A program made the position numbers and the translations under genes. This document shows, in pieces, positions 48,979 to 62,174 of a DNA stretch of 64,000 nucleotides; position 1 is the stretch's first letter, and each line of letters opens with the position of its first letter. This DNA comes from Ensifer adhaerens (GTDB lineage Bacteria > Pseudomonadota > Alphaproteobacteria > Rhizobiales > Rhizobiaceae): assembly GCF_020035535.1 (NCBI RefSeq), contig NZ_CP083349.1, positions 496,001 to 560,000 of the forward strand, read 5' to 3'. The notes beneath the pieces were generated by a model, which was given only the letters and a program-made list of their open reading frames with translations, ran no database searches and was not told the origin of the DNA.

Positions 48979-49089
48979 GCGCCGGCGTATGCGCGCTGAG
49001 ACAGCCAAATTCATCGACGGGCTTGGTGACATTCTTGCCAGAGATTGCTAAGTCCGCCGCAACCGTCCGGAACAGAAAAAGTCACGCCT

Positions 49090-51255
49090 ATGCCCGATCT
49101 TCTTATCGAACTCCGCTCCGAGGAAATTCCTGCCCGCCTGCAGCGCAAGGCGGCCGGCGACCTCAAGAAGCTGCTGACCGATGCCCTGGTCGAAGCGGGC
49201 CTGACCTATGAGGGTGCGCGCGAATACTGGACGCCGCGCCGGTTGACGCTCGATATCCGTGGCCTCAACGCCCGCTCGGCCGATATCCGCGAAGAGCGCA
49301 AGGGCCCGCGCACCGACGCCAACGAAAAGGCGATCGAAGGCTTTCTGCGCGGCGCCGGCCTCTCCTCGATCAGCGAGGCGCATGTCCACAGCGACCCGAA
49401 GAAGGGCGATTTCTACGTCGCCCACATCGTCAAGCCGGGTCGTGCCGCCGAAGAGATCATCGCCGAGGCGATGCCGGGCATCATTCGCAATTTCCCCTGG
49501 CCGAAGCCGATGCGCTCCGGCGTCGCCTCGGCAAAGCCCGGTGCGCTTCGCTGGGTCCGCCCGCTGCAGTCGATCGTCTGCACCTTCGGTTCGGAAACCG
49601 AGGAAACCCACGTAATCGCGTTTGAGGTCGACGGTATCGTCGCCTCGAACGTCACCTATGGTCACCGCTTCCACGCGCCGGAAGCAATCACCGTTCGCCG
49701 CTTTGCCGACTACGCCGAGAAGCTGGAAAAGGCGAAGGTCGTTCTCGACGGCGAGCGCCGCAAGGAAATGATCCTTGCCGATGCGCGCAACGTGGCCTTC
49801 GCCAATGGCCTGGAGCTCGTCGAAGACGAAGGTCTGCTCGAAGAGGTCTCGGGCCTCGTCGAATGGCCGCAGGTGCTGATGGGCAGCTTCGAGGAGGCCT
49901 ATCTCGAAATCCCCTCGGAAATCATCCGGCTGACCATCAAGACCAACCAGAAGTGCTTCGTCACCCGCGCGCCGGGTGCCGAAACGCTCTCCAACAAGTT
50001 TATCCTCGTTTCGAACATCGAGGCCAAGGACGGCGGCAAGGAGATCGTGCACGGCAACGGCAAGGTCGTGCGCGCTCGCCTTTCGGATGCGGCGCATTTC
50101 TGGCATCGCGACCAGGGCAACCTGCCGGATCTCGAAACGCTGGAAGCGTCCGCGAAGAAGTTCAGCCTGGATCTCAAGAAACCGCTCGACCAACGCATGG
50201 CCAAGCTCGACGCCCTGAACGTTACCTTCCACGCCAAGCTCGGCACCCAGGGCGAACGCGTCGCCCGCATCCGGGCGCTGGCCGCTGAACTCGCCAAGGT
50301 CACCGGCGCCGACCAGAGGCTCGTCGATCGCGCCGTTGTGCTCGCGAAGGCGGACCTGCGCACCGAAGCGGTTGGTGAATTCCCCGAGCTTCAGGGCATC
50401 ATGGGCCACAAATACGCGCTGCTTCAGGGCGAAGAGCAGTCGGTCGCCGATGCGCTCGAGGATCACTACAAACCGCAAGGTCCGTCCGACCGCGTGCCGA
50501 CCGAACCGGTCGCAGTGACGGTCGCGCTTGCCGACAAGCTCGACACGCTCGTCGGCTTCTGGGCGATCGACGAAAAGCCGACCGGCTCCAAGGATCCCTA
50601 TGCGCTGCGCCGCGCGGCACTCGGCGTCATCCGTCTGATCCTGGAAGGCAAGGCGCGTCTGGCGTTGCTGCCGGCTTTTGAAACGGCACTCGTCGCGCTT
50701 CGTGCGCAGAAGCCGGCGCTTGCGGATGATGTTTCCGCCGATCTGCTCTCCTTCTTCCACGATCGCCTCAAGGTCTACCTGCGAGATCTCGGCGCCCGTC
50801 ATGACCTGATCGACGCCGTGCTGACGTCGGATTCGGACGACCTGCTGATGATCGCCCGCCGCGTCGAGGCACTCACGGCCTTCATCACCGACGAAGAGGG
50901 CAGGAACCTGCTCGCCGGCACCAAGCGCGCGACGCAGATCCTGGCGGCCGAGGAAAAGAAGGGCACGACCGTCGCCGACGCCGTCGACGCCGGCCTCTTC
51001 CGTCTCGATGCCGAAAAGGCGCTGCACCAGGCCGTCGAAGCCGGCTCCGGCGAAGCGCGCGCGGCGATCGCCAAGGAGGATTTCCGCTCCGCAATGGAAG
51101 CGTTGGCAAAGCTGCGCCAGCCCGTCGACCAGTTCTTCAACGACGTACTGGTCAATGACGACGATGCGGCGATCCGCGGTAACCGCCTGGCACTGCTCGG
51201 CCTCATCCGCTCGGCCACCGGCACGGTCGCGGACTTCTCGAAGATCGCCGGCTAA
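49090..51255 (+). CDS. glyS: Glycyl-tRNA synthetase beta subunit
   Basis: A 721-residue tRNA-binding subunit of the alpha2beta2 glycyl-tRNA synthetase. [15 protein letters not shown] at the N-terminus is the family signature, an HD-like domain lies mid-protein, and the C-terminal part is an anticodon-binding DALR-like domain ([16 protein letters not shown]). ATG 49090 ([10 protein letters not shown]) was chosen over 49045. It is separated from glyQ by about 5 kb and at least six genes, all but one in the same direction. Confidence 0.95.
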
Positions 51256-51361
51256 AGCGGAGGGGCGGCCGCCCGTTCGCGGTCGTGGTCGCACAAACGT
51301 TCAAGCAGGTCGCCGCTGAGCGCCCTATATCCTGTCTCCATCAAGCAGATGGAGACAGCCG

Positions 51362-51742
51362 ATGGATATTGCGCAGAAGACCTACAAGCCGATCAATTTC
51401 GCCGAAAAGCTCGCGCTCTTCAACGATCGGTGGCAACCGCGCGTCATTGCCGAACTCAATGACTACCAGTTCAAGATCGTGCGCATCGAGGGCGACTTCA
51501 TCTGGCACGATCACAAGGATACCGACGAGGCCTTCATCGTCCTTGAGGGCACATTGCGCATCGACTTTCGCGATGGCGCGGTGACGCTTGGGCCGGGCGA
51601 GATGTACGTCGTGCCGAAGGGCGTAGAGCACAAGCCCTATGCCGAGCGCGAGGTGAAGATGCTGCTGATCGAGCCGCGCGGCACGCTCAACACCGGTCAT
51701 GAGGGCGGGGAGCGTACAGCCGAGAGCGACCGCTGGATCTGA
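51362..51742 (+). CDS. Cupin domain-containing protein
   Basis: A 126-residue single-domain cupin. Motif 1 is WHDHKDTDEAFIVLEGTLRI (His, His, Glu ligands; split) near 48-65, and motif 2 is PGEMYVVPKGVEHKP (His ligand) near 80-95. It probably binds a metal, and its substrate is not evident. GGAGACAGCC precedes the ATG. The DUF523 gene follows in the same direction. Confidence 0.85.
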   Translation: MDIAQKTYKPINFAEKLALFNDRWQPRVIAELNDYQFKIVRIEGDFIWHDHKDTDEAFIVLEGTLRIDFRDGAVTLGPGEMYVVPKGVEHKPYAEREVKMLLIEPRGTLNTGHEGGERTAESDRWI

Positions 51743-51807
51743 CGCGTCCGCCTGCTGGTGCTTGGATCGCGCTTGATGGATGAGGGAACCTCGGAGTAGA
51801 GGAAGAT

Positions 51808-52308
51808 ATGTCCGAAAAGATCCTCGTCAGCGCCTGCCTCATGGGCCATGCCGTCCGCTATGACGGTCAGTCGAAGCCGCTCGTTCATCCAGCGATCGAC
51901 CGCTGGCGGGCCGAAGGCCGCCTTGTGACCATCTGTCCGGAAATGTCGGCCGGCATGCCGGTGCCGCGCCCGCCGGCCGAAATCGCCGCCGGTGCCGTGG
52001 GCAAAGACGTTCTGGCAGGTAGCGCAAGGGTGGTGGAGATCAACGGTCGCGACGTCACCGAAAGTTTCGTGCGGGCCGCCGAAAATGCGCTTTCGCTGGC
52101 GAAGGAAACCGGCTGTCGCTTCGCGCTGCTGATTGATGGCAGCCCGTCCTGCGGATCCGGCTTCGTCTATGACGGCAGCTTTTCCGGCGCGCGCCATCCG
52201 GGCGAGGGCGTAACCGCAGCCTTGCTCGCCGGCAATGGCATCGAAGTCTATTCGGACAGGGAAATCGACGCGCTTGTCGCGCGGATCGAAGAATTGGAAG
52301 ACCCCTAA
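51808..52308 (+). CDS. DUF523 domain-containing protein
   Basis: A 166-residue soluble protein with SACLMGHAVRYDGQSK (about 8-23), CPEMSAGMPVPRPPAEI (about 46-62) and DGSPSCGSGFVYDG (about 110-123), the conserved Cys-containing stretches of DUF523. Some members act on 2-thiouracil-related or sulfur chemistry, but the function here is not assigned. GAGGAAG precedes the ATG. A hairpin separates it from the convergent gene. Confidence 0.88.
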   Translation: MSEKILVSACLMGHAVRYDGQSKPLVHPAIDRWRAEGRLVTICPEMSAGMPVPRPPAEIAAGAVGKDVLAGSARVVEINGRDVTESFVRAAENALSLAKETGCRFALLIDGSPSCGSGFVYDGSFSGARHPGEGVTAALLAGNGIEVYSDREIDALVARIEELEDP

Positions 52309-52312
52309 AAGA

Positions 52313-52350
52313 AGATTGCGCCCCTGCTTCTCTCAGGGGCGCAATCTCTC
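52313..52350 (-). terminator. Terminator of the HPE1-like gene
   Basis: AGATTGCGCCCCTG-CTTCTCT-CAGGGGCGCAATCT is a perfect 14-bp stem. On the minus strand TCTTTTAGG follows, 81 bases after the secreted-protein stop. It may act on both strands because the DUF523 stop is only 5 bases away. Confidence 0.75.
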
Positions 52351-52427
52351 GCTCTTGCAGCGATACGCCCGTCAGCCTTGCAAGCAGGGGACGGCTGAGC
52401 GGGGCAGGGAACTTTCCCGATAGAAGA

Positions 52428-52961
52428 TCAGTCTAGCCGAAGTTCGAGGGAGGACGGATCAAAATGCCGTGAGGCGATGTCGGCGTCTGGTGTGGAGGCG
52501 GCCGGGCCTGCCATGGAAGCGCCGATCGGCGTGACGGCGGCGGTCTTTGCCGTCCGGTCGATAGCGATCAGCTTTGCGTCGTCGGCTACCGCGTTCTGGT
52601 CGTTCGCATTCGTCGAGACGATGACCGTCGGGGAGGCATCGCCCTCGGCGGCGGCAGCCTTGACGATCTCCTGCGAAGGCTTGCTGACGAAGACGACCGG
52701 CGAGCCACCGAGCCAGGCTTCGGTGCGCACCATCTTCATCTCGCCGTTGATCTTCTTGAGCTCGATCGTTTCGTCGCCCGTCGCAATCGTGGGTACGACA
52801 TAGGTCACCTTCTTCTTCGACTGCAGCGGCGGGCATGCGGCGCAAGAGACCGTGGCGACACTGGCATTGTCGGTCGTGCCGGAAGCGATCGCCTCGATCG
52901 ACGATGCCGCTGCGTTGCCGGCGGCAAGCCCGAGGACGGTGGTGATCAGCAACAGGCGCAT
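52428..52961 (-). CDS. HPE1-like secreted protein
   Basis: 177 residues. It has a signal peptide (MRLLLITTVLGLAAGNAAAS), a CAACP motif (about 40-44), and a core reading ELKKINGEMKMVRTEAWLGGSPVVFVSKPS (split). This resembles proteins annotated in rhizobia as plant virulence effector HPE1-like, a name inherited by homology only. It is likely periplasmic. There is no evidence of effector function. Confidence 0.6.
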   Translation of the reverse strand: MRLLLITTVLGLAAGNAAASSIEAIASGTTDNASVATVSCAACPPLQSKKKVTYVVPTIATGDETIELKKINGEMKMVRTEAWLGGSPVVFVSKPSQEIVKAAAAEGDASPTVIVSTNANDQNAVADDAKLIAIDRTAKTAAVTPIGASMAGPAASTPDADIASRHFDPSSLELRLD

Positions 52962-53068
52962 ACGCTTTCTCCCGCAATTGTTAGCGGTGAGAATATGCGC
53001 GCTCCCTTACTTTCCCGTCAGGAGAATTGGTAAAAATAGAATGATCCGGGGATGAGTTGCGCTCCGGA

Positions 53069-54340
53069 TCACGCTTTCTCGCGGGCAACCGCGCGCCAGC
53101 CGATATCGTGGCGGTAGAAGCCGTTTTCCCAGGAAACCGCCGAGACCGCCGCATAGGCCCCGTCCTTCGCCGCGCCGGCGCTTTCACCCGTCGCGGTGAT
53201 GTTGAGCACGCGGCCGCCGGTTGCGACCAGGGCGCCGTCCTTCATCGCTGTGCCGGCATGGAACACCTTGGTGGTAGCCGAGGCCGCAGGAAGGGCATCG
53301 ATCGGGGTGTTCTTCGTGTAGCTGCCCGGATAACCCTTGGAGGCCATGACCACGGTGAGTGCCGTTTCGTCGCGCCATTCCGCAGTCATGCCGGCGAGCG
53401 TACCGGTCGCGGCGGCATAAAGCAGCGGCAGCAAGTCGCTCTTCATCCGCATCATCAGCACCTGGCATTCCGGGTCGCCGAAGCGGACATTGTATTCGAT
53501 GAGTTCGGGTCCCTTGGCGGTGATCATCAGACCGGCAAAGAAGACGCCGGAGAAGGGGTGGCCGCTTTCCGCCATACCGCGCATCGTCGGCTCGATGATT
53601 TCCTTCATCGTCCGATCGATCATTTCGGTGGTCATGACCGGGGCTGGAGAGTAGGCGCCCATGCCGCCGGTGTTCGGTCCGGTATCGCCGTCGCCAACGC
53701 GCTTGTGATCTTGGGCAGAGGCGAGCGCCAGCGCCGTCTTGCCGTCGCAGAGACAGAAGAAGCTTGCTTCCTCGCCATCGAGATAGGCTTCCACCACCAC
53801 TTCGGCGCCGGCGGAACCAAAGGCGCCGGCAAAACAATCGTCGACGGCAGCGAGCGCCTCGTCGAGCGCCATGGCGACGGTCACACCCTTGCCGGCAGCC
53901 AGACCATCGGCCTTGATGACGATCGGCGCACCCTGTTTGCGCACATAGGCCTTCGCCGTCTCGGCATCGGTGAAGCGGCCATAGGCGCCGGTCGGGATGT
54001 CGTAGCGGGCGCAGAGATCCTTGGTGAAGCCCTTGGAACCTTCAAGCTGGGCGGCGGCGGCAGACGGGCCGAAGACGGCGATGCCGGCTGCGCGCAGCAC
54101 GTCGGCGAGACCGGCGACCAGCGGACCCTCAGGTCCGACGACGACGAAATCGATCGCTTCCTTACGGCAGAAGGCGGCGACGGCCGCATGGTCCTCGGTG
54201 TCGAGGGCGACGATGACAGCTTCTTCGGCGATCCCGGGATTGCCCGGTGCCGCATAGAGCTTCGTCAGTTTGGGAGACTGCGCAATCTTCCATGCAAGGG
54301 CATGCTCGCGCCCACCCGATCCGATCAGAAGAACCTTCAT
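53069..54340 (-). CDS. purD: Phosphoribosylamine-glycine ligase
   Basis: A 423-residue ATP-grasp enzyme of purine synthesis (GAR synthetase). [20 protein letters not shown] is the N-terminal signature, [15 protein letters not shown] follows, [16 protein letters not shown] is the ATP-grasp Lys motif, and [12 protein letters not shown] (metal-binding) is near 290. It lies on the same strand as the GGDEF-EAL gene, 107 bases downstream of it, but probably has its own promoter. Confidence 0.96.
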
Positions 54341-54447
54341 TGCAGCCCCCGATATCCTGAAATTGCTGCGCTGCGGTTAAGACGGCAGGGCGGCAAGGTC
54401 AAGGGAAAAGCGGGAGCGGGGCGGCGATTCCCGGCAGTTGCTGCCGT

Positions 54448-56817
54448 TCAGGCGATTGCCTGCCGGCTTTGGAGTTCGTCCCGCCCATCGTCGCGCGCGT
54501 ATCGAGCGGTGCGCGTGAGCGCCCAGATTGCGAGGTCTTCGATCGGCAGCGGCTTGCTGATGAGATAGCCCTGGAACAGGTCGCAGCCGGCAGCAGTCAG
54601 CATGGAGAGCTTCTCCGGCGTGTCGATGCCTTCGCCGACGACCGCAACGTCCTTGGCGTGGCAAAGGGCGATCAGGGCCCTGAGCACGGGCAGCGACTGC
54701 GATGCGGTAAGGTTCGACACCAGCGCCCGGTCTAGTTTGATGGTGTCTGCCGTGTATTCGATGATCTGCTGCACGGAGGTGTAGCCTGCGCCGAAATCGT
54801 CGATCGAAAGGCGGAACCCCCTCTGCCGCAGGGCATCGATGTTGCGGCGAAGCTGATCGCTGAACTTCACGGCGAAGGTCTCGGTCAGTTCGATTTCGAT
54901 TGAGCTCGCCTCGAGGCCATGCCGCTCCAGGCACTCGGCAAAATGGTCGGCGATCGCCTTGGAATGCAGTTCGGCCGAGGAGATGTTGATCGCCAGCACC
55001 GTTTCCGGACCGAAGAGCGCTTTGAGCTGCCCGCAATCGGACATCGCCTTGTTGATCACCCACCAGTCGATCTTGGTGAAAAGGCCGGAGCTTTCTGCGA
55101 TCGGTACGAATTCGTCCGGGGTAACGTTGCCGAGGACCGGCGAGTACCAACGCAAGAGCGCCTCGCAGCCGGTGACGCGGCCTTCGGTGTCGACCATCGG
55201 CATGTAGACGAGGTGGAACTGCTCGTCCGGATCGAGCGAGCGCAGCTCGTCCTGGATCTGGCGCAGCCGCGTGCGCTTGTCGTGGAGCGCGCGCGAGAAA
55301 CGGGCGGAACGGTTCTTGCCGCTGGTCTTTGCCTGATACATCGCGGCATCGGCGTTGGAAATCAGCTCGGCAAGGTTGGTGGCATCGTCAGGGCAGATCG
55401 CCGCGCCGATGCTTGCCGTCACCGGATAGCGCTTGTCGGACACCTCGAAACCGTCTTCGAACAGCCCCAGAATGGCGGCGGAGATTTCACGGACCGTTCC
55501 GTCGCCGGGTCGAGACCGCACGAACACAGCGAATTCGTCGCCGGAGAGGCGTGCCAGGATGGCCGGCTTCTGGCCGCGCCGCTCGGTGATCGCGTCGACA
55601 CGCTCGCCAATGCGAACGGCCAGCGTCTTCAGCAGTTCGTCGCCGATCTCGTGTCCGTGCTTGTCGTTGACGAATTTGAAGTTGTCGATGTCGATGAACA
55701 GCAGGCTGCACTTCTCGCCGGCGGCGATCGCCTCGCGCACGGCGCCGGCGGCAAGCGCGTTGAAATGGCCGCGGTTGCTGATTCCGGTCAAGGTGTCGGT
55801 CCAGGAACTGCGTTGCACGAGTTTCAACGACTGCACCGATTGCCGATGCAGTTCGCGGATATTTTCCGTGAGGCGCCCGATCTCGCCCTTTTCCTCCATG
55901 TCGCGGATCTCGTCGCGCGCGCCAACCATCACCGCCATCACATTGGCGTCGAGCGCGGCGATCGGGTCGGTGATGAAGCGGCGGATCAGCACGATGATCA
56001 GCCAGATCGAGAACAGGCTCATGGCGACGGCGCCGAGCGCCAGCAGGAACTTCTGCCGGGCCATGAGTGCATCGAAATGCTCGCTCGAAACCGTGAGCGT
56101 CGCATAGAGCGAGGGCCCGAGATGGACACTCGCCGAAAGATCATCGGTGATCGCCAGCGGCCAGGGCTGCAACATGATGTCGGAGCCGTATTCCTTCTTC
56201 AGGGCCTGCTGCATGTCGAGGAAGCGGTCCGGCTGGATTGCGACCTGTACGAGCAGGGCGCTCGACTTCTTGCTCGGCAGCGGCCGGGTAAAGGCCACCG
56301 GATCGAGGAAGAAGGAATAGACGATGCGTGGTCTCTGCCCGGCTTCGTAGAGATAGGTCCAGTCGACGAGCTTGTCTTCGCGGATCAGGCGGCGCGCAAG
56401 GTTGAGCTGGGCCCCGTCGATCTGGGCGAAGGGGTCCCAGCTGTTCTCGAAATAATAGTCCGTCTTCAGATCGGAATTCAGCAGCGCCAGCGAGACGTAA
56501 CCTGTCGGGTCATCGAGAAGCGATTTCAGGCTTTCCTGCAACCTGACACCGAGGGCATTGGCGCGGTAGTCCTCATCCGTTTCGGACACATACTGGCGCA
56601 GCGAATTGCCGTTCAGGAGCGCATTGAGGAAACCCTTGCTGCGGCCGATTTCGTTCTGGAAGACGGCGGCGGCATGTTCGAGACGTTGCGACAGCTTGGC
56701 GTGCTCGAGCGCGCGAATGGAGCGACTCTGTGTGACGTGGACCGAGACTGCTGCCAGCAAGTAGCCAGCGAGAACGACGGGAAAGATCAGGATGAGCGCG
56801 CGTTTGCCGAGGTTCAC
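54448..56817 (-). CDS. Membrane GGDEF-EAL protein with periplasmic sensor domain (MbaA-like)
   Basis: 789 residues. TM1 (about 8-28), a periplasmic domain of about 225 residues (29-255), TM2 (about 258-279), a HAMP-like linker, then GGDEF with SGDEF at 425-429 and EAL from about 530. EAL catalytic residues appear intact: EAL 552-554, Asn 611, Glu 646, DDFGAG 673-678, KLD 694-696 and FQGY 748-751. It may make or degrade c-di-GMP under control of a periplasmic signal. It overlaps the upstream PotD-like gene (ATGA), as NspS and MbaA lie together in Vibrio cholerae. Confidence 0.88.
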   Translation of the reverse strand: MNLGKRALILIFPVVLAGYLLAAVSVHVTQSRSIRALEHAKLSQRLEHAAAVFQNEIGRSKGFLNALLNGNSLRQYVSETDEDYRANALGVRLQESLKSLLDDPTGYVSLALLNSDLKTDYYFENSWDPFAQIDGAQLNLARRLIREDKLVDWTYLYEAGQRPRIVYSFFLDPVAFTRPLPSKKSSALLVQVAIQPDRFLDMQQALKKEYGSDIMLQPWPLAITDDLSASVHLGPSLYATLTVSSEHFDALMARQKFLLALGAVAMSLFSIWLIIVLIRRFITDPIAALDANVMAVMVGARDEIRDMEEKGEIGRLTENIRELHRQSVQSLKLVQRSSWTDTLTGISNRGHFNALAAGAVREAIAAGEKCSLLFIDIDNFKFVNDKHGHEIGDELLKTLAVRIGERVDAITERRGQKPAILARLSGDEFAVFVRSRPGDGTVREISAAILGLFEDGFEVSDKRYPVTASIGAAICPDDATNLAELISNADAAMYQAKTSGKNRSARFSRALHDKRTRLRQIQDELRSLDPDEQFHLVYMPMVDTEGRVTGCEALLRWYSPVLGNVTPDEFVPIAESSGLFTKIDWWVINKAMSDCGQLKALFGPETVLAINISSAELHSKAIADHFAECLERHGLEASSIEIELTETFAVKFSDQLRRNIDALRQRGFRLSIDDFGAGYTSVQQIIEYTADTIKLDRALVSNLTASQSLPVLRALIALCHAKDVAVVGEGIDTPEKLSMLTAAGCDLFQGYLISKPLPIEDLAIWALTRTARYARDDGRDELQSRQAIA

Positions 56818-57854
56818 TGGAAGTTCGCCAATGTGCTGATGATGCGCCGGCGCAATTGCACCGACTCTGTGGACAGTTCCTGTTGATACTGGCTCTTGGC
56901 CAGGATGTCGGGTGAGGGGTAGATCGCGGGGTCGGTGCGGACGTCTTCCGGCAGGAGCTGATAGGCTGCCCGGCTTGCCGTCGGCATGTTGAGCGCCAGC
57001 GCGTTGGCGGCAGCACTGCCGGGCGAGCCGAGATAGTCGAGGAGCGCCAGCGCCCGGTCCTTGTTCGGGGAATTCGCGACGACGGACATGCAGTCGAGCC
57101 AGGAAAGGGTGCCTTCCTTGGGAACGGCGTAGCGCCAGGCGCCGGGTGTGCCGGCCTTGTCGTTCAGCACGTGCTGATCGCCGCTATAGCCGAGCGCCAT
57201 GTAGATGTCCTTGCTGACCGTCGGGTTCTGGATCGCGCTGATGATGTATTCGTAGGTAAGCACCGAAGGCGCCTGCTCTTTCATCAGGCTAAAGGCGGCC
57301 TTCAGCGTCGCGCTGTCGTTGGTGTTGATCGACTGGCCGAGAAGCATCAGAGGTGCGACGAAGGCTTCGTTGTGGTCGTCGTACATGGCGACATGCTTGG
57401 CGAGCGCCGCGTCTGGACGCATGAGATCCTGCCAGGAGGTCGGCGTCGTCGATACGACGTCCGACCGGTAGAGAATGCCCATCGTGCCCCAGAGATAGGG
57501 CAAGCCTCGGTTTGAGCAGCGGTTGCGCCAGGTTTCGTCATAGTCCCGGAGCGAGGCGACGTTGGTCTCGTCGAGCTTTTCGAGCACGCCCTTTCGGCCG
57601 AAGAGGGCAGCGCTGTTTTCGCCGGTTACCACCAGGTCGACGCGGCTGTTCGGATCGGCCAGCACCTCATCGCGGGTGTCGCCGCTGTCGTAATAGACCT
57701 GGTGCACCGCGACGCCTGTTATTGACGTCCAGCGCTCGAGGATCTTCTGGTCGATGTAGGATTCCCAGATCAGCAGGTTCAGGGTTTCGGCCTTTACCGC
57801 CGTCGCAAGAAGCAACGTCGCCAGAAAGGCCGGAATCGCCGTTCGCCCCTGCAT
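56814..57854 (-). CDS. PotD-like periplasmic polyamine-binding protein (NspS-like)
   Basis: A 346-residue solute-binding protein with a signal peptide (cleaved near VKAET). Aligned with E. coli PotD, polyamine-contact residues are mostly kept: Trp30 and Tyr33 (IWESYI), Asp160 and Glu163 (DDHNEAF), Trp252 and Asp254 (SWLDCM) and Gln324. Trp229 becomes Tyr223. No ABC permease or ATPase gene is nearby. Its 3' end overlaps the start of the GGDEF-EAL gene by 4 bases, so it probably feeds a signal to that protein rather than a transporter. Confidence 0.85.
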   Translation of the reverse strand: MQGRTAIPAFLATLLLATAVKAETLNLLIWESYIDQKILERWTSITGVAVHQVYYDSGDTRDEVLADPNSRVDLVVTGENSAALFGRKGVLEKLDETNVASLRDYDETWRNRCSNRGLPYLWGTMGILYRSDVVSTTPTSWQDLMRPDAALAKHVAMYDDHNEAFVAPLMLLGQSINTNDSATLKAAFSLMKEQAPSVLTYEYIISAIQNPTVSKDIYMALGYSGDQHVLNDKAGTPGAWRYAVPKEGTLSWLDCMSVVANSPNKDRALALLDYLGSPGSAAANALALNMPTASRAAYQLLPEDVRTDPAIYPSPDILAKSQYQQELSTESVQLRRRIISTLANFQ

Positions 57855-57970
57855 TGTATACCCCTGCCCAAGCCCGTCGGACGACCGTAGCGCGCAAAAA
57901 TTGATGAATGATTACGTAGGGCTGCGACGAGTAGTAGGGGTCTCGCGTGCTGCTTGCGGCGCAAACGAAA

Positions 57971-58001
57971 ACCGGGCGCCGCATGACGGCGCCCGGTGAA
58001 A
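57971..58001 (-). terminator. Terminator after the MFS gene
   Basis: ACCGGGCGCCG-CATGA-CGGCGCCCGGT is a perfect 11-bp stem. On the minus strand TTTTCG follows, 45 bases after the transporter stop. Confidence 0.75.
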
Positions 58002-58041
58002 AATAAAGTGATAACGGAAAGCGATTTCGGGGCGACGAGCC

Positions 58042-59238
58042 TTATCTCGCGGGGATCTTCGGTAGCAGGATCGTGAGGATGCCGAGCAGCGGAAGATAGG
58101 AGCAGATGGTGTAGACGAATTCGATGCCCTGCCGGTCGGCGAAGATGCCGAGCACGGCCGCGCCCATGCCGCCGAAGCCGAAGGCGAAGCCGAAGAAGAC
58201 ACCGGCGATCAGCCCCACGCGCCCAGGCACCAGCTCCTGGGCAAAGACGACGATCGCCGAGAAGGCAGAAGAGAAGATCAGGCCGATGATGACGGAGAGA
58301 ACCCCAGTCCAGAACAGGTTCGCATAGGGCAGCAGCAAGGCGAAGGGGATGACGCCGAGGATCGAGAACCAGATGACGAAGCGGGCGCCGTAGCGATCGC
58401 CGATCGGGCCGCCGAGGAAGGTTCCGGCCGCCGCCGCGCCGAGGAACAGGAACAGCATCAGCTGAGCCTGCTGTACGTCGATACCGAACTTCTCGATGAC
58501 GAAGAAGGTGAAGTAGCTGGAGATGCTCGCCATGTAGACGTTCTTCGTGGCTGTCAGCAGCACAAGCACGGCAACCGCCCACATCACCCGACCCTTCGGC
58601 AGGGGGAGGGCACGGCTCGGTGCCGCCCGGCTCATCGTCGTGCGGCGGTGGCGGACATACCAGGTGCTGACCCAGGAAAGCACGAAGAAGCCGATGATCG
58701 CGACGATCGAGAACCAGCTGAGGCTTCCCTGACCGAAAGGAATGACGATGAAGGCGGCAAGCAGCGGCCCCATGGCGCTGCCGGCATTGCCGCCCACCTG
58801 GAACAGCGACTGCGCCAGGCCGTGGCGACCGCCGGAGGCGAGGCGGGCGATGCGGGAGGATTCCGGATGGAAAATGGCCGAACCGACACCGATCAGGCTC
58901 GCTGCGACCAGGAGCACCCAGAAATCATGCGCATTCGCGAGCAGGATCAGGCCGCTGCAGGTGGAAAGCATGGCGAGCGGCAGGGAATAGGGCAGCGCCC
59001 AGCGGTCGGTGATGATGCCGACGGCCGGCTGCAGCATCGACGCCGTCAGCTGGAAGGTAAAGGTCAGGAGGCCGATCTGCACGAAGTCGAGCGAATAGTT
59101 CGCCTTGAGCAGCGGGTAGAGCGCCGTCAGCAGCGACTGCATGATGTCGTTCAGCATATGGCAGAAGCTGACGGCCAGGATGACGGAGAAAGCCGTCTTC
59201 TCCGGGGAGATCCCGGAAGTTGAAGTCACGGTAGACAT
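58042..59238 (-). CDS. MFS transporter, fosmidomycin-resistance (Fsr) type
   Basis: A 398-residue major facilitator efflux protein with about 12 transmembrane helices. The N-terminal FSVILAVSFCHMLNDIMQSLLTALYP (split) and IGVGSAIFHPESSRIARLASGGRHGLAQSLFQVGGNAG are distinctive for the Fsr family. It exports small drugs, with fosmidomycin as the reference case. The true substrate here is unknown. An AraC-family regulator is divergent and a terminator follows. Confidence 0.9.
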   Translation of the reverse strand: MSTVTSTSGISPEKTAFSVILAVSFCHMLNDIMQSLLTALYPLLKANYSLDFVQIGLLTFTFQLTASMLQPAVGIITDRWALPYSLPLAMLSTCSGLILLANAHDFWVLLVAASLIGVGSAIFHPESSRIARLASGGRHGLAQSLFQVGGNAGSAMGPLLAAFIVIPFGQGSLSWFSIVAIIGFFVLSWVSTWYVRHRRTTMSRAAPSRALPLPKGRVMWAVAVLVLLTATKNVYMASISSYFTFFVIEKFGIDVQQAQLMLFLFLGAAAAGTFLGGPIGDRYGARFVIWFSILGVIPFALLLPYANLFWTGVLSVIIGLIFSSAFSAIVVFAQELVPGRVGLIAGVFFGFAFGFGGMGAAVLGIFADRQGIEFVYTICSYLPLLGILTILLPKIPAR

Positions 59239-59347
59239 GGGTGATTCCTTGCCGTCTCGAAGGTTGTATGCGGCGTGGGCTATCTGTACTGAGGTTGCGG
59301 TTGGCCTGCTTTTGTGATCTGGTCGATTTCTTTCGTGAGTGGGCCAA

Positions 59348-60163
59348 ATGCCGATCCGCCGATTTCCCTTGCCGCAGCTTCCCGATGACGACCACTTCCG
59401 GAACCTCGACTGGGTCGAGACGGGAAATGCCCCGGTGTTGGCGCTTGGGCGAGACTACAGCGCCGGCCTCCTGGTTCCTTTTCACAGCCATACGCGCACG
59501 CAGCTCTGGTGGGCACGCGGCGGCGTGGTGCTGATGCGCACCGAACGCGGGCGGTGGATGGTTCCGCCCGGCCACGCCTTGTTGATCCCGGCCGGTATGG
59601 AGCACTCGGCCGAAATGATCAGCGACGTGCGCATGCATTCGATCTATTTCGCGCCGGACCTTTTGCGCGCCGAGCGGCCGATGGTCATGGAAATCAACCC
59701 GCTTGCCGGCAGCCTCGTCGATGCGCTCGTCAGCGTCGAGAACGAGGCGATGTCGGAGCGGCGCGAACAACTGGTCACGGATCTCTTGCTCGAGGAAATC
59801 GGACGGTTGCGGGAGCGCCCGCTCGGCCTGCCTTTCCCGCGCGACGAGAGGCTTGCGGCCCTCTGCCGGCAGTTCCTGCAGGCGCCGTCGGCAGCCTCAA
59901 GCATCGATCAGTGGGCAGATCGGATGGGCCTCAGCCGGCGATCGTTCACCCGGTTCTTTCGCAAGGAGACGGGCGTCAGCTTCGTCACCTGGCGGCAGCA
60001 GGCCTGCATTTTCGCGTCGCTGCCGCTCCTGGCCGATGGCGAGCCGATCACCAATGTCGCGCTCGACGCCGGCTATGAGAATGTGGCGGCCTTCACCACC
60101 ATGTTTCGCCGCATGCTCGGCAGCCCGCCGAGCGTCTATCTCAAGACCTATCTCGGCCAGTGA
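59348..60163 (+). CDS. AraC-family transcriptional regulator
   Basis: 271 residues. A cupin-like N-terminal sensor (about 20-130, with VPFHSHTRTQLWW and RWMVPPGHALLIPAGMEHSA) and a C-terminal AraC double helix-turn-helix (about 160-270: MGLSRRSFTRFFRKETGVSFVTWRQQ split, then NVALDAGYENVAAFTTMFRR). It is divergent from the Fsr-type pump and probably controls it. I prefer ATG 59348. GTG 59339 is an in-frame alternative. Confidence 0.88.
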   Translation: MPIRRFPLPQLPDDDHFRNLDWVETGNAPVLALGRDYSAGLLVPFHSHTRTQLWWARGGVVLMRTERGRWMVPPGHALLIPAGMEHSAEMISDVRMHSIYFAPDLLRAERPMVMEINPLAGSLVDALVSVENEAMSERREQLVTDLLLEEIGRLRERPLGLPFPRDERLAALCRQFLQAPSAASSIDQWADRMGLSRRSFTRFFRKETGVSFVTWRQQACIFASLPLLADGEPITNVALDAGYENVAAFTTMFRRMLGSPPSVYLKTYLGQ

Positions 60164-60334
60164 TCCACGTCGGCCGGACGGGTATGGCAAAAGAATGTTG
60201 AATTGACCTGGTTAACGGAATCGTAGGAACAAGCCGCAATAAGTCGCCCGGTGCCGTTCCAGTCCATCTCCCTCCCTCGGCCTGCCGGCACGGTCAAACT
60301 TCGCCCCGGCGAATGATTCTTCCGGAGTTGTTTC

Positions 60335-61141
60335 TTGCGTATCCGTTATCTCGCTTTCCTTTCTGGAACCCTTTTGTTGTCGGCGAATGCCGCCTCTGCC
60401 GGTGACGGCCAATATTTCTGGTCCGGTGACTGGTATCTGAAGGTCGGCGCCACCGGCTTTTATGGACCGAAATACGAAGGCGCCTCCAAGCGCATGTTCC
60501 AGGCAGCCCCCCTGATCTCCCTTGGAAAGGCCGGCAGCACCGTCCGCTTTTCCTCGCGTAACGACAACATGTCCTATGCGTTGGTCGACCAGGGAAGCTT
60601 CCGTGCCGGTCTCGTCGGCAAGCTGATCTTCGAGCGCGACTCCGGCACTTCCCGCGACCTCAAGGGTCTGGATCCGGTCAAGTTCGGCGGTGAAGTCGGC
60701 GGTTTCGCTGAAGTCTACCCGACGGACTGGCTGCGCGTTCGCGCCGAAGTGCGCCAGGGCATTCGCAGCCACCATGGTGTCGTTGCCGACGTCGCGGCTG
60801 ACGCTTTCACCGATGTCAGCAGCAACGTCCGCATTTCCGGCGGCCCGCGTCTGAGCGCGGCCACGAGCGGCTACTATTCGGCCTATTATGGCGTCAATGA
60901 TCGCGAATCGGCAGCATCCGGGCTCAACACCTACAGCCCCCATGGCGGCGTCGGTTCCGCCGGCGTCGGTGCTGCGATCACTTGGCAGGCAACCGAAAAG
61001 CTCGAGACGAGCGCCTATGCCGAGTACCGGCGCCTGCTTGGTCCTGCTGCCGATTCCAGCCTCGTTCAGGAGCGCGGCAGTCGCAATCAGGTCCTCGTCG
61101 GCCTGTCGGCAACCTACCGCTTCGACTTCACTCTTCCCTGA
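60335..61141 (+). CDS. MipA/OmpV-family outer-membrane protein
   Basis: A 268-residue outer-membrane beta-barrel protein. A signal peptide (LRIRYLAFLSGTLLLSANAASA) is followed by alternating-hydrophobic strands and a C-terminal SATYRFDFTLP, an outer-membrane insertion type ending with aromatic residues. It begins with TTG at 60335, with GGAG 8 bases upstream. MipA scaffolds lytic enzymes in E. coli, whereas OmpV members are general barrels. The gene is monocistronic before ubiA. Confidence 0.85.
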   Translation: MRIRYLAFLSGTLLLSANAASAGDGQYFWSGDWYLKVGATGFYGPKYEGASKRMFQAAPLISLGKAGSTVRFSSRNDNMSYALVDQGSFRAGLVGKLIFERDSGTSRDLKGLDPVKFGGEVGGFAEVYPTDWLRVRAEVRQGIRSHHGVVADVAADAFTDVSSNVRISGGPRLSAATSGYYSAYYGVNDRESAASGLNTYSPHGGVGSAGVGAAITWQATEKLETSAYAEYRRLLGPAADSSLVQERGSRNQVLVGLSATYRFDFTLP

Positions 61142-61214
61142 TCGGGTGCTTGGTCCCAAGGTCTGCGGCGATCTCGCCGCTTGACCGGCCGGATGCGTGG
61201 CGTCAAACAGGGAC

Positions 61215-62174
61215 ATGAACACGATCTCTGCCGATTCCGGCCGCGTCCAGGACGCACCGTCGAACAACTGGGTCTATCGCGTGCTGCCGCGTGCGCTCTG
61301 GCCCTATGCGCAGCTTGCCCGTTGGGATCGCCCTATCGGCTGGCAATTGCTGCTGTTGCCCTGCCTCTGGTCCGTGGCCCTGGCCGCGGGCGCAGCCGCT
61401 GGCACCGATCAGTTCTCGTTCGGTCGCTTCCTGTTTCATTGCTTCCTGTTCACCGCCGGCGCGATCGCCATGCGCGGTGCCGGCTGCACCTACAACGACA
61501 TCGTCGACCATGACATCGACATGGAAGTTGCCCGCACCCGCTCGCGGCCGCTGCCATCGGGACGCGTCTCGCGGCTCCAGGCCAAGGTGTTCATGGTGCT
61601 GCAGGCGCTCGTCGGTCTCCTTGTGCTGCTGCAGTTCAACACCTTCTCGATCGTGCTCGGCATCCTGTCGCTGGCGATCGTGGCGATCTATCCCTTCGCC
61701 AAGCGGTTTACCGACTGGCCGCAATTCTTCCTTGGCCTTGCCTTCTCCTGGGGTGCACTGATGGGCTGGGCGGCCGAGTTCGGCACGCTGTCGCTGGCCG
61801 CCGTGTTGCTCTACGGCGCGGCGATTGCCTGGACGATTGGTTATGACACGATCTACGCCTATCAGGACCGGGAAGACGACGAGTTGATCGGCGTGCGCTC
61901 GACGGCGCGTCGGTTCGGGGAAAACCCGCGGCCGTGGCTGATCGGCCTCTATGGCATCGCGACGCTGCTATTGCTTCTGTCCTTCGCGGCTGCCGGTGCC
62001 GGCGCCGTTGCCTATATCGGACTTTTGATCGCGGCAGCGATGCTGACCTACCAGATTCTGGTCCTGAATATCCACGACCCGGCGCAGTGCCTGGCGCTGT
62101 TCAAGTTCAATGGGGTGGTCGGCCTGATCATCTTTGTCGGCCTGGTGCTGGCGTTTCTCGTTCGCCTGATGTGA
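61215..62174 (+). CDS. ubiA: 4-hydroxybenzoate polyprenyltransferase
   Basis: A 319-residue integral membrane prenyltransferase of ubiquinone synthesis. The two Asp-rich motifs NDIVDHDIDMEVARTRSRPLP (split; about 88-108) and YDTIYAYQDREDD (about 211-223) bind Mg-diphosphate, and about eight helices are present. It uses the chain made by a prenyl synthase such as the one at 39546-40562. ATG 61215 is favoured, and a GTG at 61197 would add six residues. Confidence 0.94.
   Translation: MNTISADSGRVQDAPSNNWVYRVLPRALWPYAQLARWDRPIGWQLLLLPCLWSVALAAGAAAGTDQFSFGRFLFHCFLFTAGAIAMRGAGCTYNDIVDHDIDMEVARTRSRPLPSGRVSRLQAKVFMVLQALVGLLVLLQFNTFSIVLGILSLAIVAIYPFAKRFTDWPQFFLGLAFSWGALMGWAAEFGTLSLAAVLLYGAAIAWTIGYDTIYAYQDREDDELIGVRSTARRFGENPRPWLIGLYGIATLLLLLSFAAAGAGAVAYIGLLIAAAMLTYQILVLNIHDPAQCLALFKFNGVVGLIIFVGLVLAFLVRLM

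Follow-up and report, generated by a model that had tools for sequence, protein, structure and literature searches.

An NspS-MbaA-type gene pair, coding for a binding protein of the polyamine type and a membrane GGDEF-EAL protein, in Ensifer adhaerens

The window analysed here, a stretch of 64,000 nucleotides from Ensifer adhaerens (assembly GCF_020035535.1, contig NZ_CP083349.1, positions 496,001 to 560,000 of the forward strand; source genome of 8.13 Mb in 3 contigs), carries a gene for a periplasmic polyamine-type binding protein that runs into a gene for a membrane protein with GGDEF and EAL domains. Tree, gene order, motifs and fold agree in supporting membership of this pair in the NspS-MbaA family, in line with the NspS-MbaA-like identity suggested by a preliminary description of the DNA, and we put the probability that it is the Ensifer orthologue of NspS-MbaA, working by the mechanism considered below, at about 0.82. 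Because NspS-MbaA has already been published in the same rhizobial group, the finding is an instance of a known system and its novelty is low; what we add beyond print is modest and comprises a cysteine mark, a Cache assignment, mbaA loci devoid of nspS and a difference in the ligand pocket. The system matters in that it couples an amine signal from the surroundings to the choice between sessile and motile life in bacteria associated with roots.

The two genes lie at the following positions:

56814..57854, (-) strand: nspS-like gene, periplasmic polyamine-type binding protein of 346 amino acids with an SBP_bac_8 domain, on the NspS branch of the tree

54448..56817, (-) strand: mbaA-like gene, membrane GGDEF-EAL protein of 789 amino acids, with a GTG start and a 4-base overlap with nspS

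The arrangement described earlier, a PotD-type protein overlapping a GGDEF-EAL gene by 4 bases, is thus found as such; by the coordinates of the open reading frames (ORFs), the bases GTGA are common to the GTG start of mbaA (56817-56815) and the TGA stop of nspS (56816-56814). The Pfam scan scored SBP_bac_8 in NspS at 95 bits and the GGDEF and EAL domains of MbaA at 116 and 204 bits, and the solved folds closest to NspS are those of PotF/PotD. Among the matches listed, the named proteins closest to NspS and to MbaA come from Ensifer, as do the closest named loci. In all 50 related loci mbaA reads 3' of nspS, for which reason we consider the pairing to be far beyond chance, and in 48 of them mbaA is uninterrupted. 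The genes and their domains, the family to which they belong, their co-inheritance and the predicted folds are matters of observation. As a separate observation, mbaA is broken into pieces in loci L040 and L053, and matches to nspS end early in L053 and L061 (at residues 313 and 328, respectively), reflecting either decay or sequencing error.

Phylogeny against NspS and PotD, set beforehand as the test on which the assignment might fail, placed the binding protein apart from PotD/PotF: a branch with support of 100/100 divides a tree of 29 rows into 21 NspS rows, from two or more classes, and 8 PotD/PotF-type proteins, the tree lacking V. cholerae NspS and carrying a long-branch warning for the transporter-type rows and some of the NspS rows. 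The NspS rows are the window protein, 10 named relatives, 3 database proteins (one from Stutzerimonas) and 7 proteins from genomes related to the window at phylum level only; the transporter-type rows are E. coli PotD and PotF and 6 paralogs from the source genome. Only 2 of the best 120 relatives listed (from S. alkalisoli and S. sojae) bear the name NspS, and most of the other names given are transporter-type.

The closest published counterpart is the pair smc00991/smc00992 of S. meliloti, for which overlapping genes, SGDEF and EAL motifs and an upstream fsr gene are described (PMC9993111, 2023), all of which the window pair shares. The overlap is counted there as 3 bp, against 4 common bases here. 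Over residues 1-330, MbaA shows 75% identity with the S. meliloti entry P0161, and the window NspS shows 64% identity with P0045 (from Sinorhizobium sp. KGO-5), which we take as S. meliloti-like. A survey of 16,076 complete proteobacterial genomes found the pair in 222, Ensifer included (PMC9993111). In V. cholerae, compared from papers only, the gene for the binding protein likewise lies immediately 5' of one for a membrane protein of the SGDEF-EAL type (PMC9993111, PMC8079147), but it differs by a 16-bp overlap, EVL in place of EAL and other neighbours (PMC9993111), and its ligand preference may also differ.

The domains of MbaA can be placed as follows:

56038..56760, (-) strand: periplasmic domain, MbaA residues 20-260, reaching into the membrane helix on either side; double-Cache fold by prediction

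55309..55803, (-) strand: GGDEF domain by Pfam, MbaA residues 339-503, motif SGDEF

54550..55227, (-) strand: EAL domain by Pfam, MbaA residues 531-756, motif EALLRW, with the usual catalytic residues present by eye

The large periplasmic domain claimed earlier for the GGDEF-EAL partner is borne out as a part between two membrane segments, followed by the SGDEF and EAL domains, the segments having been taken from the helices of the structure model and by analogy with PMC9993111. A sensor domain of the Pfam type was sought in this part and rejected, no Pfam family matching it at E up to 5. Its AlphaFold2 model (mean predicted local distance difference test score, pLDDT, 85.3) matches solved Cache sensor domains, the periplasmic part of LuxQ among them, and we therefore predict from the model a double-Cache domain of the LuxQ fold class. 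We found no paper text linking MbaA with Cache and polyamine, MbaA and Cache occurring in one paper but in its reference list only, in a search whose coverage excluded most subscription papers.

With these parts in place, we consider the following mechanism, in which the ligand, the docking and the direction of the c-di-GMP (cyclic di-GMP) effect in the window organism are what we infer. NspS would be exported to the periplasm, where a polyamine from outside the cell would bind in the cleft of its two lobes; by analogy with LuxP on LuxQ, NspS might then dock in a ligand-dependent manner on the periplasmic double-Cache domain of MbaA, and the docking would switch MbaA between c-di-GMP synthesis by the SGDEF domain and c-di-GMP breakdown by the EAL domain. 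The net effect in rhizobia would probably be breakdown, so that putrescine-type ligands would lower c-di-GMP, exopolysaccharide (EPS) and biofilm; a role on the root surface, as raised in the preliminary description, would be conjectural. The likeness to LuxP-LuxQ consists in the combination of a periplasmic binding protein with a membrane receptor and in the fold match mentioned above; LuxP belongs to another binding-protein family and has autoinducer-2 (AI-2) as its ligand, and LuxQ is a kinase rather than a c-di-GMP enzyme. The predicted sensor fold makes such a docking model testable.

Let us next consider the ligand. The contact residues named in the preliminary description (Trp30, Tyr33, Asp160, Glu163, Trp252, Asp254 and Gln324) are all present and align with ligand contacts of PotD; Ser83 and Tyr85, contacts of PotD as well, align with Gly78 and Asn80 of NspS. 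Gln324 was dropped as a family mark, since it varies, occurring in 156 of 169 distinct close relatives and in 0 of 10 other NspS. Tyr203, Tyr223 and Asp226 are invariant in 205 NspS rows, duplicates still included. Of the eight positions predicted to contact norspermidine in V. cholerae NspS, six are kept; the equivalents of D90 and F131 are Gly78 and Leu121, the numbering being transferred through the alignment, which does not contain the V. cholerae sequence. At position 78, the 169 close relatives have Gly (106), Asn (39), Asp (18) or Ser (6); at position 121 they have Leu (146) or Phe (23). Asp and Phe stand together at these positions in P0045 and in P0066 (S. medicae), in agreement with the reported conservation of all eight predicted contacts between V. 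cholerae and S. meliloti NspS (PMC9993111). Going by these residues, the ligand preference of the window NspS may differ from that of the S. meliloti-like form, and with Asp and Phe replaced by Gly78 and Leu121 the V. cholerae ligand should not simply be assumed here. This pocket difference within Ensifer/Sinorhizobium offers a testable handle on ligand choice.

One may accordingly ask if the pair signals, but in response to a diamine such as putrescine or agmatine, or to another plant or rhizobial amine, instead of norspermidine or spermidine. This is a sharper form of our main explanation, the odds of the two overlapping, and we regard it as a serious possibility that falls somewhat short of even odds. 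Besides the two replaced contacts, it is favoured by Asp226, which is present in 179 of 179 distinct NspS and is shared with E. coli PotF, E. coli PotD having Ser and 4 of 8 transporter-type controls having Asp, and by the induction of nspS transcription in S. meliloti 1021 by putrescine and spermine but not by spermidine or norspermidine (PMC9993111). In the same strain, putrescine or spermine lowers biofilm and EPS, an effect that is lost in an nspS mutant (PMC9993111); the insertion in this mutant very probably abolishes mbaA expression too. However, most of the contacts are kept (Trp30, Tyr33, Asp59, Asp160, Glu163, Tyr223, Asp226, Trp252 and Asp254), so longer polyamines may fit as well, and norspermidine increases biofilm in S. 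meliloti Rm8530 (PMC9993111).

A second feature of NspS concerns its cysteines. The window protein has exactly two, encoded as follows:

57516..57518, (-) strand: Cys113 codon of NspS, preceding the PYLWGT strand

57090..57092, (-) strand: Cys255 codon of NspS, directly after the ligand-site Asp254 (WLDC)

Both are present in 179 of 179 distinct NspS (169/169 close relatives, which are alphaproteobacterial where named, and 10/10 others), and neither position holds Cys in any of the 8 transporter-type proteins that served as control (E. coli PotD and PotF and the 6 source-genome paralogs). In the compared stretch these are the only cysteines of 177 of the 179, the other 2 having one or two more; 5 of the 8 controls also hold two cysteines there, at other positions of the chain. 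No NspS row was dropped before counting, and identical stretches were counted once; the set was assembled from sequences resembling the window protein or alignments that contain it, with protein lists confined to the best 120, and the count consequently speaks for relatives within this range and could not reveal a Cys-less NspS at greater distance. The simplest reading of this co-occurrence, for a periplasmic protein, is that Cys113 and Cys255 likely form a disulfide beside the ligand aspartate. Whether this bond does more is a matter for conjecture: we tentatively suggest, with somewhat less than even confidence, that a lineage-specific disulfide in binding proteins turned sensors ties the ligand-site strand to the segment preceding PYLWGT and thereby sets the open/closed balance that MbaA reads. 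If true, NspS would depend on periplasmic oxidation, and the cysteine pair would be a simple sequence mark by which NspS sensors could be told apart from PotD transport proteins in any genome, a candidate mark of some use as so few of the relatives listed bear the NspS name. The words "cysteine" and "disulfide" do not occur in the main text of PMC9993111 or PMC8079147, nor "cysteine" in PMC8967002, and among the papers listed by the literature search, with most subscription papers outside its coverage, none has the structure of NspS as its subject.

The distribution of the pair bears on how far MbaA depends on NspS. Three samples of genomes were searched for the periplasmic domain of MbaA. It is present in 33 of 297 at the level of the family, in 10 of 398 at that of the phylum (two of which also belong to the 33) and in 1 of 385 at that of the class, this one being the window's own genome; as a Chelatococcus and a Methylopila are among the 50 related loci, some carriers escaped the class sample. 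NspS was sought by alignment in 40 MbaA-positive genomes (23 + 17), that of the window being known already, and nspS adjoins mbaA in 38 of the 41 distinct MbaA-positive genomes. The other three (G471, G541 and G637; loci L095, L096 and L097), all in one family (f53) other than that of the window, have mbaA directly after pheA with no nspS beside it. Two further genomes of f53 (G359 and G389) have the order pheA-nspS-mbaA, pheA being identified by Pfam in all five. It looks as if nspS was lost in the three genomes, gain in the other f53 genomes being the alternative. Elsewhere in G471 and G637 there are only transporter-level relatives of NspS, scoring 173-179 bits as opposed to at least 413 bits for NspS.

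As a side observation, G541 (L093:5074-8538) and G359 (L094:5041-8502) carry, elsewhere in the genome, an additional NspS-like gene that has both cysteines and is followed after 3 bases by a gene for a GGDEF-EAL protein of 808-809 amino acids. The L093 pair has a degenerate GGDEF motif, GGNQF, and ECL in place of EAL; these second pairs look like a paralogous sensor with altered output.

Cache domains often bind small ligands directly, and MbaA might therefore sense the ligand through its own Cache domain, with NspS merely modulating the response. Ligand-bound examples appear among the titles of the Cache fold matches of MbaA, and the three genomes with mbaA after pheA lend the idea some weight, G541 having its unlinked NspS-like gene. 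We nevertheless consider it unlikely, as the pair stays together in nearly all MbaA-positive genomes and MbaA of V. cholerae is reported to detect polyamines via NspS (PMC8967002, PMC8079147). The genomes with MbaA but no adjacent NspS provide a natural comparison.

That NspS simply serves a transporter, with the permease encoded at another site and the c-di-GMP enzyme adjacent by accident, is very improbable and was rejected on tree and gene order, in spite of the PotD/PotF character of its fold, of most of its amine-contact residues, of its low-scoring family matches and of the names given to its relatives. The claim that no ATP-binding cassette (ABC) transporter genes are adjacent held up, no ABC permease or ATPase being present among the nine neighbours scanned (49045-62174), unlike the situation of E. 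coli potD and potF, whose operons also contain genes for a permease and an ATPase. Permease genes adjoin four transporter-type paralogs of the source genome by Pfam, and the fifth and closest one (L077) has adjacent ATPase- and permease-like ORFs, recognized by eye only. NspS falls below the curated cut-offs for PotD (132.1 of 582 bits) and PotF (94.1 of 636 bits), but this counts for little, as the PotD-like paralogs of the source genome also fall below the PotD cut-off and such a miss alone cannot separate a sensor from a transporter.

Returning to the NspS-MbaA pair, its surroundings contain the following features, of which the two genes are neighbours kept in gene order and not functional parts of the system:

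53069..54340, (-) strand: purD, downstream neighbour

58042..59238, (-) strand: fsr, a major facilitator superfamily (MFS) exporter named by synteny, upstream neighbour

57971..57997, (-) strand: GC-rich terminator-like hairpin of 12 base pairs with a T-rich tail, between fsr and nspS, from a pattern scan

The nine neighbours are glyS beta, a cupin, a 2-thiouracil-desulfurase-type protein, a 177-amino-acid protein without family, purD, fsr, an AraC-type regulator, MipA and UbiA. The gene purD lies 3' of mbaA in the fetched flank of 47 of the 50 related loci, a tight order for which we know of no functional reason. In 41 of the 50, fsr is within the fetched flank, and fsr-nspS-mbaA has been described as a conserved order (PMC12095868). 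A simple sigma-70 pattern found no promoter near nspS. The hairpin scan of both strands of 53000-59400 gave 6 sites against 4.5 expected, the other five having stems of 5 or 6 pairs; the 12-pair hairpin between fsr and nspS therefore suggests that nspS-mbaA is probably transcribed as a unit of its own.
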